From Coffea arabica (lineage: Eukaryota > Streptophyta > Magnoliopsida > Gentianales > Rubiaceae), in NCBI RefSeq assembly GCF_036785885.1, contig NC_092329.1:8432001-8496000 (forward strand): a stretch of 64,000 bases of DNA, read 5' to 3'. The position numbers and the translations under genes were made by a program. The notes under the pieces are model-generated. The model saw only the letters and a program-made list of their open reading frames with translations. It was not told the origin of the DNA and did not search any database. Shown piece by piece: positions 6,924 through 54,545 of the stretch (its first letter is position 1; the number at the start of each line of letters is the position of its first letter).

Positions 6924-7545
6924 GGCTAATTGATTAGAATATAGGTGTAAAAAAGAAAAGTCACACACTTGTGGATCTGACAGAGTCCATGTATAAAATT
7001 ATGGGTACCGGGCTGAGACAGCCCGGCACCTGACAGAAACTTTTTTTTTTTTTAACATGTCAGACAGCCCGGCACCTGACATATTTTTTTTGACAAAAGA
7101 TGTCAAGTGCCGGGCTGTGTCAGCCTGGCACCTGACATCCAATTGAGTGAATTGCAATTCATCCAATTGAGTCAATTGAGTGAATTGCAATTCACTTTAT
7201 TTGTTAAGCTAGTTGATAAATGCAATTCACTTTAATTAGTTTAGTGGATTAATTAGTTTAATTAATTGAGTGAAGTAATTTTAAGAGATTCGATTAAATG
7301 CATTTAATTAAGGTGATGGTTTAATTTATTATTTATTAAATATTCATTTATTTGTTATAAATGATTTAATTATTTAATTATAATGCATTATTTGTTGTTA
7401 TTTGTTATTATTAGTTGTTATTTAATTACACTTTATTTGTTGTTATTTGTTATACTATTTGTTATTATTCGTTGTTATTTAATTACCCTTTAGTTGTTGT
7501 TATTTGTTATTTATTTGTTATTATTTCTTATAATTATAGAATCGC
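6924..7545 (+). repeat. Left inverted arm of the foldback element
   Basis: Matches the reverse complement of 9008-9634 over nearly its whole length with small indels. Near the tip are the palindromic units at 7004-7035 and 7098-7137 and a half unit at 7056-7081. They are followed by TTGAGTGAATTGCAATTCA repeats and an AT-rich stretch of TTATTTGTTGTTATTTG words. Confidence 0.85.
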
Positions 7546-7662
7546 AATTATTTATTTATTTGTTATAAATTATATATATTTGATTCAATTAATTAATTAT
7601 TCAAATAAGCATATTAATGAGGTTCTAAAATGCTATCAACACTCATCTCTAATAGGTATAAC

Positions 7663-7884
7663 ATGTCAAGTGATAATTGCTTGGTCATTCAAGTATATTG
7701 GGGTGAAAAAATTATAAACGAAGGAGGGTCAATTTCATATGATCCTTCTATACCGAAACAAGTGTTGTTCCTTACAGAGATGGTAGGTTATGATGATTTG
7801 GTAGACAAAATATACAATCTTTTGGGTTTAGATCGGAATCTTCTGGGTAGACAAAATATACAATCTTCATTACATGTTTGCTAA
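7663..7884 (+). pseudogene. MULE transposase N-terminal remnant
   Basis: A 73-residue open frame beginning MSSDNCLVIQVYWGEK, then GGSISYDPSIPKQVLF and MVGYDDLVDKIYNLLGLDRN. Its position inside a 9-bp-duplication element and its style (short basic start, then VYWGG-like and GYDDLVDK blocks) resemble the N-terminal segment of plant MuDR-type transposases. This is family recall, not a search result. The frame stops after a short duplicated piece (LLGRQNIQ), and the DDE catalytic part is missing. It is not expected to be functional. Confidence 0.5.
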
Positions 7885-8488
7885 ATATCAAATATTATAA
7901 TATGGGAATTTAGCCTTTTATTATTTGAATGCTTATCATTATTTTTATATCTAGCCATTTCACCGTTGTCACGCTATGCATTTTTTCCTCTTTTTTTGGT
8001 CCTTTTTTTTATATATTGCACAATAAATTTAGTTTTACAAAATTATAGTGAACATTAAAAATTACATAAAAATTCTAACAAATAATTTCTCAACAATTTG
8101 AGAACTACATCTTATTACAAAATGAATGGTATATTTTGTTTGAAAAAATTTTCATAGTTTAACATTCTATAGGAGTAATTAGTGATTTTGCACAAATCTA
8201 TTTTCTTCTTTTTCTTACGTTTCAACTTTGAAATGTAAATTAATTAACTTAAATTTCAAAGTATTTAGTACTTCAGGTCGACTCAGCTTTTTATTAAACT
8301 TTTTTTCTTGTTTTGGTTTTTTGATTTTTTTTTGTATGGGAGATTTATGAAATTATCCTCACAATACAAACTACGAAAAAAATTCAAAACTTAAATAGAT
8401 GTTCTATTAGTATGCATTATGTTCAATTGGTAAAATGCAAAAATTCAATATAAGTACCAACACGAGAATGAATACAAAATCTAAAATG

Positions 8489-8669
8489 TTTAGGGTTTAG
8501 GGTTTTGGGTTCAAGGTTCAGGGTTTAGGGTTTAGGGTTTTGATCTTTAGGGTTTAGGCTTTAGGCTTTAGGGATTAGGGTTTTTAGGTTTAGGGTTTAG
8601 GGTTTAGTGTTTAGGGTTTAAAGTTTAGGGTTTAGGGTTTAGGGTTTAGTGTTTAGTGTTTAGGGTTTT
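8489..8669 (+). repeat. Interstitial telomere-like (TTTAGGG)n array
   Basis: About 180 bp of perfect and degenerate TTTAGGG units (plant telomere sequence), with variants TTTAGTG, TTTAGGC and GTTCAGG. It ends next to TTTTGATCTTT, which also interrupts the array near 8540. It lies in the middle of the foldback element, not at a chromosome end. Confidence 0.9.
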
Positions 8670-9007
8670 GATCTTTTGCATGATGCAACGTGTCACAAAT
8701 TGCGATTGATAATTACTAATCATATCACAATTTCAGCCTTACGATATTTTCTTGCGAATAAAATGAGAAGCTATAAATGAAAGAGGAAAATTCAAAATTA
8801 AAAGAATATGAATACTAGATAATTGTATTTCAAGTCAAGTGATTTGAATTCTACTGGGAAAGTTTCACTAAGAAATTTTTGTTATTCGGCACATTTTGTT
8901 TGGTAGACTTATTAATTTTTTTTTATTTTTCAGAAAAATTCGGTCAGGTACCAGGCTGACACAGTCCAACACCTGATAGATTTTTTAAAAAAATTTCCTG
9001 TCAGGTG

Positions 9008-9634
9008 TGATTCTATAATTATAAGAAATAATAAGAAATAATATAACAAATAACGACAAATAAAGGGTAATTAAATAACAACGAATAGTATAACAAATAA
9101 CAACAAATAAAGTGTAATTAAATAACAACAAATAATGCATTATAATTAAATCATTTATAACAAATAAATGAATATTTAATAAATAAAAAATTAAACCTAA
9201 TTCATCACCTTAATTAAATGCATTTGATCGAATCTCTTAAAATTAATTCACTCAATTAATTAAACTAATTAATTCACTAAACTAATTAAAGTGAATTGCA
9301 TTTATCAACTAGCTTAACAAATAAAGTGAACTGCAATTCACTCAATTCGATGTGAATTGCAATTCACTCAATTGAGTGAATGTGAAATTCACATTCACAA
9401 TTGGATGTCAGGTGCCGGGCTGACACAGCCCAGCACTTGACATCTTTTTTTTTAAAAAAATGTGTCAGGTGCCGGGCTGTCTCAGCCCGGCACCTGACAT
9501 GTTTTTAAAAAAAAAAAGTTTCTGTCAGGTGCCGGGCTGTCTCAGCCCGGTACCCATTGTTTTATACATGGACTCTGTCAGATCCACAAGTGTCTGACTT
9601 TTCTTTTTTACACCTATATTCTAATCAATTAGCC
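9008..9634 (-). repeat. Right inverted arm of the foldback element
   Basis: Reverse-complement partner of 6924-7545. It carries three palindromic units at 9405-9443, 9463-9500 and 9524-9553 built from TGTCAGGTGCCGGGCTG and its complement. The unit that is only half present in the left arm is complete here. Confidence 0.85.
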
Positions 9635-49527: not shown

Positions 49528-52421
49528 GTTACATGTACAATCACGCGTTCCCTTTATCTGTTATGCTCATATTGAGTTACGCTCTATTCGTAATTATACT
49601 CCACACAACTCCACCTTAAATTTAATAATCCATGCATTACTCACCTGTGGTATGCATCAAAGCATATGCAAATGTGAATTCAAAATGGAGGGCTAGACAT
49701 TCGGACTGTTTAAACCTTTAAATATCCTACATAGGTTAAAAGTCCATTAAACGTTCCCCTAACCAACATAATTATGCTTCCCCAAGCTATGCCCGTAATA
49801 TCAGCAAACAAAAGAATTTAATGTCACAAATCTTAACACAAGTGGTCATCTCTGTGTCCACATTTCATGAAACGAAAAGTAGGTTAAGACATTTGGTTGC
49901 AACTTATATAAGAGTCGTACAAAGTGATCGACATGATGGTGCCTGAGCAGAGGAAATGTGGCTGCAAAGAACCAATACAAAATTGCAAAAATCTGAGCAT
50001 AATTATGAAGAGGGTTTAGAGCATAGGTTCGGTTTATAATGATTGTCAGCTCTCTCCGCCTCTGATGGTGCTTCTTCTGGATCTTTTTGGTCACTACAAT
50101 AAGGTCCCCACTCGGATGTTTGCTTTGGTCCGAACCACTGAATTTGTGTTAGCCACCCACTGGATTCTGAAAAGCAATAAGCAAAATCATTTGCTCAGTA
50201 CTGCGCTGACTTTGATCTCCTTTTCTTGTTTTTTACCTCATCTCTTGCTATTTCGAAGTCAAATGCCCAATTCTTCCCGCAAGCAGGTTTGCTTTTTTGG
50301 TAGAATTTTGGGTAGTGGGATGGAGTACCTTCTCCTTCACTAACTTAAAAAAATGGAAACTAAAGAAGTGATTTTGACTTTGAAAAGTTACCAAGTGTAC
50401 TTAATGACTAATTTTCTTAAGCATATGACTATTCTATCTCCTATTCTTCAAATTTTAGATATTTTCACTCTTTTTTTTTAAACAGGCAAGCAAGTGCTTA
50501 AAATCTCAGACTATGTATGACAAGTAAAGATCTGTGAAAGTTTTATATTCATCTGAAACTTCCAAAGTCGTAATGTCCTGGATGCTACTAGCTAGAATGG
50601 TTAGAAAATTAACAAACAAGAAGAAACACAGCCCTTCCTATGAATATATTAGAGAAGTTCTTGGACAAACAATTTAGAAATGTATCACAATTGATTAGTT
50701 AGTAGAGAGATATTTGTTAGGGACTCGCAAGATTTACTGTTACATGTTGACATATTTCGAACTAAAGTACTGCATAAAATGAATAGTGTATCAAGGATTT
50801 TGGTTGGAAAGTCTTTTTCTTAAAAATCAACAACGTACCAAAAAATTTTGCTGCAATCTTGATCTACATTTTAAACACTTCTCCTTAATTAAGTTCTGTC
50901 CATAGCTTAAGACTAAAACACAACTTCTCATGTTACTAGCAATTATCTCTTTACAGGTATGACAAACACACTAGGAATACAGCGGAGACCTACCTCTTTT
51001 AATCCCTCCCTATTTATGAAATTTTGTAGTTCCCTAAATCAAGCTCTTGATTTGCTTGGTGTCTACTCCTCCATCATAATTAATTATATGCTTCTAGATA
51101 AGCTCTTAGTTAATCTTGGCCGTAAATTTCTGAATGTTAGACAAAGATAAAGATAAGCATGCCATAGATCTTGGAGAAAAGGGATTGTAAATCATTGCCT
51201 GTAGTTGTAGGATATCCCCAAGTGAAGTCCCAAATAACCAAAAAAAAAAAGGGAGAAAAATAATAAGGACCTTTTTTTTTTTTTTTTTGGGTCGTAGTGT
51301 GTGTTGTTATTAATGCAAATCAATTGACATGAATTATTCTTCTTTGGTTTAGACTTCAGACGAAGCAATTAGAGTTTCTTTAGCTGATCAATGAACTGCT
51401 CGAGACTTTGATGTAAAATCTGTGTCGAATGGAAGAATTGCTATCCATTAAAAACGGTGGAGAATTGTTTCCTAGACTTTCAACTTTTTTTGTATTTTGT
51501 CCGTGATGATGCGTTCACGTCATCACATCATAGTTTCAAGAATTGGTTCAACATAAAATATGTATAAGATCGAGTTAGCCCAACAGAGGAAAAAGATGTA
51601 TAAACCCATGCCCCCCCCCCCTCCCCAAACCAAAAAATAATAATAATAAAGAGTGGATTTCAGTTCGAACTTAATCCATATGATAATGATTATTCATCTA
51701 ATAAGGTCAATCCTTTTCACATGAACCACGAAAAAAAATTAATCTTATGTACCTAAAGACAAAAAAATTAATCTTGTGGCTGTCATATATAAGATTTTTT
51801 GGTATTTTAGTTATATAAACAGATTACTGAAACGGATCCATTGCGACCGTACAAGGTATAATTGTACTGTTTCATAAATTAAACCTACTCTTTGCCTGTT
51901 TTGCATGAGTTGACCATGTGTCTTAAAAGGAAAAAAAGGTATGAAAGGAATAGAGTTTAAGAAGAAGGGTGGATAAGGAAGAATAAAGCTCAACATCTCT
52001 AATTTCTAAGATCTTAATTTTAACCATTAGATCATGACCTCCTCAGCGTTATGTCCTTAATTAACATGTACATGAAAGAAAATTTCGATTTCGCGGTCAA
52101 ATTTTCTGCATTATGACCTGAATTGAAGGTACAAGTATACATCGAAAACTATTAGTAGTATCTTCTTTGCTTCTGCTAATCAGGTTATCTTCTTGTATGA
52201 CGGACGCATAGCATCTTTATAAGCTTATCTTCTTGTACCTACCTTGTCTAATGTTTTCATGCCCTCTAACGTTTTCACATTGCTTGATTGCTGATGACAA
52301 TTATATAATCTATGATGAAGATGTAACTAAGGAAGAAATGACAAACATATGTCTGATTAGATAATGACAGATGAAATACACTAGTTTATCCGCTTAATTA
52401 AACACACAAATAATTGAACAG
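49528..52421. other. Intergenic, nothing recognised
   Basis: AT-rich DNA. Short frames (for example 50065-50343 and 50959-51150) show no family features. T and C homopolymer runs are at 51271-51288 and 51611-51620. Confidence 0.4.
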
Positions 52422-52426
52422 CATCA

Positions 52427-52813
52427 TGTCATGGAGCGAGCTAAATAAAAGAAGGCCACGTGTTTGATTCTTATTGGTGTAGTTAGGAGTTTGTTAGAAA
52501 TTGATACCTTTATAAGCAGGCATCTCTGCTTCGTTGTAATCAGCATTTGAATTCATTTTGTCCAGATTCATCAGAATTGGCTTGAGGAGCAATCCTCAAT
52601 TTTCCCTCCCAAATCTTCCTTCAAATTCTTCCACCTTCTTAGCTAAATCCATTATCTCTGTTCTTGTAATACGTTACCAGAATTCAATTAATGAAAGCTG
52701 AAGTTCATTCGCTCACTATTTCATTGATTCATTGTTGACTGATTCCATCTCATTAAGCTTGATTTATTCTGCTTCATGCCAATTCTGGTTCCTCTGGTTT
52801 CTGTACCATAACA
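52427..52813 (+). repeat. 5' LTR
   Basis: 387 bp starting TGTCATGGAGCG and ending CCATAACA. It contains TTTATAAG (near 52510) as a possible TATA element. By eye it is identical to the 3' LTR. Confidence 0.95.
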
Positions 52814-52814
52814 G

Positions 52815-52826
52815 TGGTATCAGAGC
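52815..52826 (+). other. Primer binding site (initiator tRNA-Met)
   Basis: TGGTATCAGAGC, one base after the 5' LTR. This is the complement of the 3' end of plant initiator tRNA-Met and the usual primer site of plant LTR elements. Confidence 0.93.
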
Positions 52827-52848
52827 TAGCTACGAGCCATTGGGAGAA

Positions 52849-53727
52849 ATGACTAAAAATCAAGATGAGATGAGGAAAGAGATAACTGAACTAGGAAGTG
52901 TAGTTAGAACTTTTGCTAACAGAAGTGATGGACTGGAACAAGCTGTGAGGATCATGGAACACAGGCAGGAGAACACTGAAAAGGCTCTCAAAAACCTGGA
53001 TCAGAAATACGAAGGTATGATGAACATGATGGCACAAATGTTAGCAAAGCTGAATGACAAAGGAAGGGAGGTAGAGAGCAGCAGCTCAGAGTCTGATTCA
53101 GGATATAAGGAAGATGGCAGAAGAAGGGAGGCGCAGAAGGGAGTTATGGATAAGTCTGAGGCTAAGGAGAGCAAAATATTCACCAGACTTCCTAAGGTGG
53201 ATCTACCAACCTTCACTGGAGAGAACCCAAAGGAGTGGATCAGCAAAGCCAACAAGTATTTCAAAATCAATGGAATAGAGGAAGAAACGAGAGCTGAAGT
53301 TGCAGAACTTTATCTCAGAGACAAAGCAGATATATGGTTCCACGGCACGTTTTCTGGCAGGAAGGTTATTCATTGGGAAGAACTCTGCAATGCACTTTGT
53401 GAGAGATTTGGAGATGGCTTCCCTGAAGAAGCTATAGAGGAATTCAACAAACTGATGCAGACAGGTTCAGTAGCTGACTACCTGGAGAAGTTCGAAATGC
53501 TCAAAGCCCTGCTATGCAAAAAATTGGCGGCTGAACTGCTTTTGCGCGTGCTTATGGAAGATCAATCTCAGAAGAATCAGCAAGCTTTGCCATTTTCTTA
53601 TACTACTTGCTTGCTGCGAACTGCCAAATATCAATCTGAAGACTTTGTTTGGAAGCCTGGAACTTTGTTTGACATCCTTGAGGACAAGGATTGTTTAAGG
53701 GGGAGGCTTTGTCATGGAGCGAGCTAA
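52849..53727 (+). CDS. Gag-like protein of the LTR element
   Basis: 292 residues from MTKNQDEMRKEI. The open frame extends back into the 5' LTR, so the first ATG after the primer site was taken. Residues 1-75 are predicted coiled coil (heptad-like Leu/Met). A Ser/Glu/Lys-rich linker follows (about 75-115). Then comes the retrotransposon gag core of Ty3/gypsy type: FTRLPKVDLPTFTGENPKEW, AELYLRDKADIWFHGTF, WEELCNALCERFG and FNKLMQTGSVADYLEKFEML. After about residue 225 the sequence leaves gag. The segment ending GTLFDILEDKDCLRGR resembles the junk/terminal part of gypsy polyproteins, suggesting an internal deletion joined gag to the 3' region. No zinc knuckle was seen. The frame closes at TAA, 18 bases inside the 3' LTR. 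Confidence 0.88.
   Translation: MTKNQDEMRKEITELGSVVRTFANRSDGLEQAVRIMEHRQENTEKALKNLDQKYEGMMNMMAQMLAKLNDKGREVESSSSESDSGYKEDGRRREAQKGVMDKSEAKESKIFTRLPKVDLPTFTGENPKEWISKANKYFKINGIEEETRAEVAELYLRDKADIWFHGTFSGRKVIHWEELCNALCERFGDGFPEEAIEEFNKLMQTGSVADYLEKFEMLKALLCKKLAAELLLRVLMEDQSQKNQQALPFSYTTCLLRTAKYQSEDFVWKPGTLFDILEDKDCLRGRLCHGAS
53697..53707 (+). other. Polypurine tract
   Basis: AAGGGGGAGGC, ending two bases before the 3' LTR; the second-strand priming site of the retroelement. Confidence 0.85.
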
Positions 53728-54096
53728 ATAAAAGAAGGCCACGTGTTTGATTCTTATTGGTGTAGTTAGGAGTTTGTTAGAAATTGATACCTTTATAAGC
53801 AGGCATCTCTGCTTCGTTGTAATCAGCATTTGAATTCATTTTGTCCAGATTCATCAGAATTGGCTTGAGGAGCAATCCTCAATTTTCCCTCCCAAATCTT
53901 CCTTCAAATTCTTCCACCTTCTTAGCTAAATCCATTATCTCTGTTCTTGTAATACGTTACCAGAATTCAATTAATGAAAGCTGAAGTTCATTCGCTCACT
54001 ATTTCATTGATTCATTGTTGACTGATTCCATCTCATTAAGCTTGATTTATTCTGCTTCATGCCAATTCTGGTTCCTCTGGTTTCTGTACCATAACA
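53710..54096 (+). repeat. 3' LTR
   Basis: 387 bp, no difference from the 5' LTR found on reading both through; the last gag codons overlap its first 18 bases. Confidence 0.95.
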
Positions 54097-54101
54097 CATC
54101 A

Positions 54102-54545
54102 ATTCTGCATACGAGAACGTACGTGGATGCTGTTCAAATTAATAAGTAATTAGTTAGATCTTAGACTAGCAAAAGAAATCTATAAACGTTGTCCAAACTC
54201 GATAACCGATACGGTTTTTTTAATTAGATGATAATACTATATACGCCATGAAAAGAATCCACGGGACGGACGCTTTGACGACAAGGAAGGCAACCCATAG
54301 TCCAAATTTGTCAATAACACCAGAACACATAGGTATTAAATATTAATCAAACTAGGATGAATATCCTCATGTAAAAAACCGCCCTTGTACTCCATGATTT
54401 GATCTTTGTAGGGTAAGAGTTGATCTTGATTGTATTCAATTTCAGTGTGTTGGCTCTTGATTCTTATCACAATAAATGCAGTGAAGCATCTTGCCTGATA
54501 ATTTATAGAGGGGCCGTTGAAGGACCTGAAATTAAGGTAGCTACT

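Follow-up and report, generated by a model that had tools for sequence, protein, structure and literature searches.

The DNA analysed here (the window, 64,000 nucleotides) carries at positions 52427-54096 a complete small LTR element of 1,670 bp. We consider it likely that this is a non-autonomous Ty3/gypsy-type element that was built stepwise. The steps would be the formation of a chimera, splicing of its RNA, copying by a helper, and a second exchange of the R-U5 region of the LTR. Two features are the most informative for this reading, a splice-type junction in the interior and the mosaic composition of the LTRs. Both were overlooked in the original prediction, which was made from the window alone.

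Structure of the element

The element reads on the forward strand. Its 5' LTR (52427-52813, 387 bp, TG...CA) and its 3' LTR (53710-54096) show 0 differences over 387 bp. The target-site duplication CATCA, recognized by comparing the flanks, lies at 52422-52426 and 54097-54101, and the homeologous empty site has one copy of it. The primer-binding site TGGTATCAGAGC (52815-52826) starts 1 base after the 5' LTR. A pattern search of both strands found it only once in the window, and we take it to be a match to the initiator tRNA-Met. The polypurine tract AAGGGGGAGG (53697-53706), read from the sequence, is separated from the 3' LTR by 3 nt. Paired TG...CA LTRs, duplication, primer site and purine tract, the marks of an LTR retrotransposon, are all present, as the original prediction had described them.

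The element contains a chimeric open reading frame of 292 amino acids (52849-53727, ATG at 52849, stop at 53727). Residues 1-221 (52849-53511) derive from gag and end within the capsid region, as judged from Pfam and from relatives. Retrotrans_gag matches residues 152-222 with an E-value of 1.4e-9. The last 71 residues consist of a captured segment of the parental elements and the start of the 3' LTR. In the DNA, this tail occupies 53512-53709, and over its first ~70 bp it can be aligned with a host gene of the ARM-repeat type. The frame is not an ordinary gag protein. The earlier statement that there is only a gag-type frame is right in that the frame is the single gag-derived one and no pol domain was reported for it. 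However, 53512-53709 is non-gag, so the term gag-only is imprecise. Seven of the nine pieces of at least 40 amino acids in other frames were scanned, and none of the seven contained a pol domain.

Ty3_capsid had no match in the window protein; in two fuller relatives the match extends up to residue 315 in one and 266 in the other, counted in the scanned pieces. The CX2CX4HX4C motif is absent in the window protein, and the strict pattern is also absent in the two relatives tested. The Pfam gag match ends at profile position 77 of 97. We rejected this end as a proof of truncation, since the fuller relatives end at 78; the case for truncation comes from the comparison with relatives. We also considered, and rejected, a reading of the tail as a pol C-terminus. 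It has no Pfam match and aligns to the captured fragment and partly to the ARM-repeat host gene. Searches of viral_contigs, genome_contigs and plasmids returned no protein relatives. A PDB search with the protein gave two weak matches (E 0.0024 and 0.3) to molecules named unlike gag.

Part of the captured segment shares 51-59% amino-acid identity with host genes on contigs C13 and C14 that have Arm repeats. Arm and related repeats were found in the host genes that match the segment, and the captured gene is presumably CSI1-like. Relatives of ~3 kb (L010, L012, L017-L019) also contain a captured ARM-repeat gene fragment. A ~170-bp stretch of the host gene, probably an intron, is missing from the captured version in these relatives. 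Because of this absence, the sequence suggests that the fragment was captured from mRNA.

Copies and relatives in the assembly

The host assembly (G000) has 1,197,963,845 bases. The LTR searches scored the best 40 of 162, 40 of 153 and 40 of 140 candidates. Among the best 40 of 162, the same LTR occurs only in the window copy, on contig C20, and in a copy at C7:17131363-17133032; the next candidate is at most 90% identical. The full element with the same LTRs that had been expected did not appear there. The C7 copy (L009:1001-2670) is also 1,670 bp long, its two LTRs are identical, and its flanks differ from those of the window copy. The two copies show 2 differences. These represent a single LTR site changed in both LTRs, the pattern predicted by reverse transcription. 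The 5-bp duplication is absent at the C7 copy, whose flanks share only the 3 bp CAG. The missing duplication could mark recombination between copies.

A protein search of the genome gave 3,356 candidates, with 134 matches listed. A third full-length match lies on C14, and all other listed matches stop at residue 234 or earlier. The C14 copy (L024:1062-2729) has 1,668 bp, 0 differences between its LTRs and the duplication AACAT. A 24-base pattern across the internal junction occurs exactly three times in the genome (window, C7 and C14) and 0 times in the reversed control. Two further sites match it at 3 mismatches. The junction form is present at three insertion sites with different flanks, as copies read from the genome and not as observed movement. 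The search for further gag-only copies that the original prediction proposed has this outcome: the C7 copy, with 2 differences in 1,670, and the C14 copy.

The lineage is Ty3/gypsy. Relatives C20b and L026 carry gag, PR, RT, RNase H and IN in this order, and C20b shares 93% identity with the window copy over positions 28-1088.

Mosaic LTRs and the probable helper

The LTR of the window copy is composed of parts with different affinities. Positions 1-117, on the U3 side (52427-52543), are identical (117/117) to the 5' LTR of a 2,774-bp relative on C22; over positions 118-365 the two LTRs clearly differ, with an identity of 79-80% in a first alignment, ~84% when aligned pairwise and 85% in the genome search. 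The motif TATAA at LTR positions 85-89 (52511-52515), read from the sequence, is a putative promoter. From its position, we presume on general knowledge that R starts at about 115-120. Positions 118-166 (52544-52592), the putative start of R, are of the helper or C14 type at informative sites 124-154 and of the C22 type at 155-157. Positions 167-365 (52593-52791) are identical to the LTR of a family found as a tandem array on C21. Here the identical run covers 188 columns (167-354), and 201-365 match at 165/165. Comparing the C14 and array types, the informative sites are C14-like up to 166 (except 112, 155 and 156, array-like), array-like at 173-365, C14-like at 370-379 and array-like at 382. 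These switches are fewer than in 20,000 shuffles, a comparison that tests clustering only. None of the scored LTR candidates proved to be the exact source of R-U5 in the window copy.

The C14 copy has a simpler LTR. It is C22-like at the informative sites up to 117, except at 112, and helper-like at all informative sites in 124-381. Positions 120-386 show 0/267 mismatches to elements on C12 (L036) and C15 (L037) and 1 mismatch to an element on C2 (L038). The uninterrupted frames of these elements have 1,557, 1,557 and 1,532 amino acids, respectively, and their LTR pairs show 0 differences in two cases and 2 in one. In L026, which is related to them, gag, protease, RT, RNase H and integrase are all present. 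Among the best 40 of 140 candidates, the helper LTR is also present in a second C2 element 127 kb away, which may be a segmental duplicate, and as a single LTR on C12. The same 40 include a helper-type LTR at 97-98% on C20:8018808-8024287. Stop-free frames of at least 1,400 amino acids hold 17 of the 134 listed gag matches. The R-U5 identity points to Ty3/gypsy relatives with 1,557-codon frames as the probable helper of the C14 copy.

The original prediction also held that the element depends on the enzymes of other elements. No pol was found, which agrees with it. On the other hand, the link to an autonomous-looking element runs through R-U5 only, and it is exact only for the C14 copy.

The C14 LTR switches 32-39 nt below the start of TATAA. 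Since R is presumed to begin at about 115-120, a switch at 117-124 would result if minus-strand strong-stop DNA passed from one RNA molecule to another: the RNA on which synthesis was primed would give R-U5, and the accepting RNA would give U3 and the body. In the window copy, R-U5 seems to have been replaced a second time, with more switches.

An exchange between DNA copies might also have made the mosaic LTR. Ectopic recombination near the primer site would give an element a helper 5' LTR, and a normal cycle would then join the U3 of the old 3' LTR to the R-U5 of the new 5' LTR. This explanation applies to the LTR alone and does not conflict with splicing. The LTR composition and boundary that it predicts for C14 are the same, and the surroundings of the primer site are similar between the families. 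Nevertheless, the loci examined (the best-scoring candidates) included no intermediate that joins a helper 5' LTR to a C22-type 3' LTR, and each R-U5 replacement costs one extra event. We regard the exchange between DNA copies as unlikely and prefer the transfer of strong-stop DNA.

The region C21:5312428-5353188 (L015, L023) is a head-to-tail array of a non-autonomous LTR unit. It has 15 LTRs with an exact period of 2,886 bp, and the units are 99.9% identical in two comparisons. Gag matches repeat at ~5,190 bp on C1:3614357-3640984 and at ~5,174 bp on C6:24645544-24672081. These periods suggest tandem arrays of autonomous-size elements.

The internal junction

The junction CTG|CTA of the window copy lies at 53511-53512. 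Aligned to it, the C22 element has CTG, a block of 1,111 bp (GTAATG...TTTGTTTCAG) and CTA. The block starts with GTAATG after CTG and ends in TTCTTTTGTTTCAG. It is the single internal gap of at least 3 nt between the two elements, which agree at 690/698 bases in the gag part (98.9%) and at 194/197 in the tail. An element on C19 is also 2,774 bp long and has no gap of at least 3 nt against C22. The C6a element (2,411 bp) lacks 363 bp relative to C22, with the same CTG|GTAATG donor and another AG. Both gaps relative to C22 end in AG, one after TTCTTTTGTTT and the other, in C6a, after TATGTAC. In these two cases, one or two alternative placements of the gap are possible. A third case is the C21 array unit. 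It lacks 87 nt relative to C4 (GTGAAC...GGAAG), with GT...AG edges in the sole placement.

Five internal gaps of at least 50 nt were compared, and three of them (1,111, 363 and 87) have GT...AG edges. The other two, 192 nt in L033 and 54 nt in C10, do not, so ordinary deletions also occur. The chance that a random deletion can be written as GT...AG is 0.0049 in C22 and 0.0064 in C4 (50-200 nt). The gag donor is the sole GTAA in C22 positions 400-1140. It was found in C20b (L014) and in L025-L028, the four further gypsy relatives consulted, but nothing in the array family (L015) matches at the gag-donor site. The acceptors of the 363-nt and 87-nt gaps have poor pyrimidine tracts. For the 1,111-nt gap, the similarity to the C14 host gene runs on through the acceptor into the first residues of the tail, and for this reason the acceptor looks cryptic.

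A block missing relative to an unspliced relative and bounded by GT and AG is a mark of a retrocopy of spliced retroelement RNA, and this is what the window copy presents. Reverse transcription of a spliced RNA seems to be the simplest reading of the 1,111-bp absence. Two characters unite the C14 and C20/C7 copies: one additional A adjoining the junction and, at internal column 253, a derived G that C22, C19 and C6a do not have. With these two derived characters in common, the spliced form of C14 and C20/C7 probably has a single ancestor.

The element could instead be an ordinary TR-GAG. In that case a gypsy element would have lost its interior by deletion, either through illegitimate recombination or through a template jump, and a partner sharing its LTRs would mobilize it in trans. 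Gag is indeed its sole remaining domain, the Inpactor operational rule in the available text of PMC6022998 applies to it, and two of the five internal gaps of the family are not GT-AG. Against this, the tail is part of the captured fragment and not of pol. GT-AG edges occur in two gaps with the same donor and in a third elsewhere, and the best 40 of 162 candidates included no such partner. We find a plain deletion quite improbable, and splicing accounts better for the junction.

Insertion site and age

The homeologous site on contig C19 (L035) is empty. It is identical at 195/200 bases to the joined flanks of the window copy. Because it has one CATCA and no element, the insertion in the window most likely happened after the two homeologs had separated. 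We dated the insertion from the 0/387 LTR differences with rates of 7e-9 and 1.3e-8 per site per year. The 95% upper bounds are ~0.55 My and ~0.30 My, respectively. The faster rate is quoted in PMC5818461. The LTR identity, these bounds and the absence from the homeolog agree with the recent insertion that was originally proposed.

An assembly artefact or collapsed LTRs are scarcely credible: a consensus error could in principle give perfect LTR identity, but the junction is common to three copies at different places, the site that differs between C20 and C7 differs in both LTRs, and the homeolog has an empty site.

The target site lies at the loop edge of a perfect 12-bp inverted repeat, TTGAACAGCATC/GATGCTGTTCAA (window 52414-52425 and 54126-54137). 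In the empty homeolog both arms are likewise intact, and the empty site folds with only modest stability compared with shuffles (z -1.9). Elsewhere in the window, positions 6924-9634 form a long inverted repeat with longest arms of 128-150 nt, 96-98% complementary. Inside it, positions 8488-8668 contain ~25 degenerate repeats of the plant-telomere type (GTTTAGG).

Proposed origin

A chimeric element of ~2.8 kb, of the C22/C19 type, with the 5' part of gag and the captured ARM-repeat fragment, would first have been transcribed. Next, splicing of its RNA, with the GT donor in gag and an AG acceptor within the captured fragment, would have taken out 1,111 nt. The enzymes of an autonomous relative would then have copied the spliced RNA. 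During this copying, minus-strand strong-stop DNA (R-U5) made on helper RNA would have moved onto the R region at the 3' end of the spliced RNA. The product would have the parental U3 and the helper R-U5 in its new LTR, as the C14 copy has. In a later cycle, most of R-U5 would have been swapped for that of the family now found in the tandem array, and this product would have entered the window site and a site on C7. The C14 type would precede the C20/C7 type. The window LTR needs several switches in this model.

A broader proposal is that the gag-only elements of the family arise by splicing and that spliced RNAs replicate in a two-RNA mode. Since a spliced transcript would be unable to act as its own strong-stop template, helper strong-stop DNA would regularly provide R-U5. 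We offer this generalization tentatively, and it is rather doubtful. If it were true, the last helper could be identified in any genome from R-U5, which would serve as its label. Fusion proteins of gag and captured genes would arise as a side effect and might act on helper particles.

Comparison with known elements

The published systems are compared here as the available portions of the cited papers describe them. Under the Inpactor rule, a TR-GAG has GAG (or GAG and AP) only and no RT, RNase H or INT (PMC6022998). The window element is a TR-GAG by this rule and not by the complete-gag picture of PMC8704663. The complete GAG of AT5TE33540, which goes beyond the rule of PMC6022998, is not found here, where gag ends at residue 221. 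The gag-only form, with three copies of the same junction and different flanks, occupies several insertion sites, as is required of a TR-GAG. The TRIM rule demands no coding domain and less than 2,000 bp (PMC6022998); the element is short enough but has a gag domain.

Transposition of one Arabidopsis TR-GAG has been observed in ddm1 (PMC8704663). Like it, the window element has two LTRs and only a GAG domain, and would be moved in trans. In contrast to the 562-amino-acid GAG of the Arabidopsis element, called full-length, gag in the window is cut at 221 and fused to a captured fragment. The window element also differs in its GT-AG type junction and mosaic LTRs.

Alternative splicing in the gag region produces a subgenomic RNA in EVADE and BARE1, of Ty1/copia (PMC8892269, PMC3735527). 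Those are spliced transcripts, whereas here the splice-type junction is in integrated copies and in a Ty3/gypsy setting. The chimeric LTRs recall the template-switch chimeras of Triticeae, for which a model of co-packaging, with strand switching from one R region to another, was given (Sabot and Schulman 2007; PMC1950507). The Triticeae chimeras are large complexes of two parents. Here the element is a monomer, and the C14 copy has a clean U3 / R-U5 exchange with an R-U5 source that can be named. LTR elements of rice and sorghum have also captured host genes (PMC3726574), while the window element keeps only a short remnant of the fragment after the junction. As BARE2, TRIM and LARD elements do, it would live as a parasite on autonomous relatives (PMC6696364, PMC6022998, PMC3735527). 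TRIM and LARD have no coding domain and BARE2 cannot make gag; the window element is instead without pol. Truncated gag elements of triticale have been proposed, without a test, to interfere with particles (PMC7765848). Our narrow literature search, with subscription journals mostly outside it, found no report of integrated spliced copies with a helper R-U5.

Biological meaning

The idea of trans-mobilization in the original prediction is supported by the sequence, with no whole-LTR-matching partner among the best 40 of 162 candidates. The mover of a non-autonomous element is usually guessed from overall LTR similarity. Here, the mosaic LTR names the probable helper of the C14 copy directly. 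The splice-type junction would show, in concrete terms, one way in which gag-only elements can come about. Work on BARE argues, in its available text, that retrotransposons must avoid replicating spliced RNA (PMC3735527), and the family of the window element looks like a natural exception to this argument. The element looks like a record of one mobile element borrowing the copying machinery of another.
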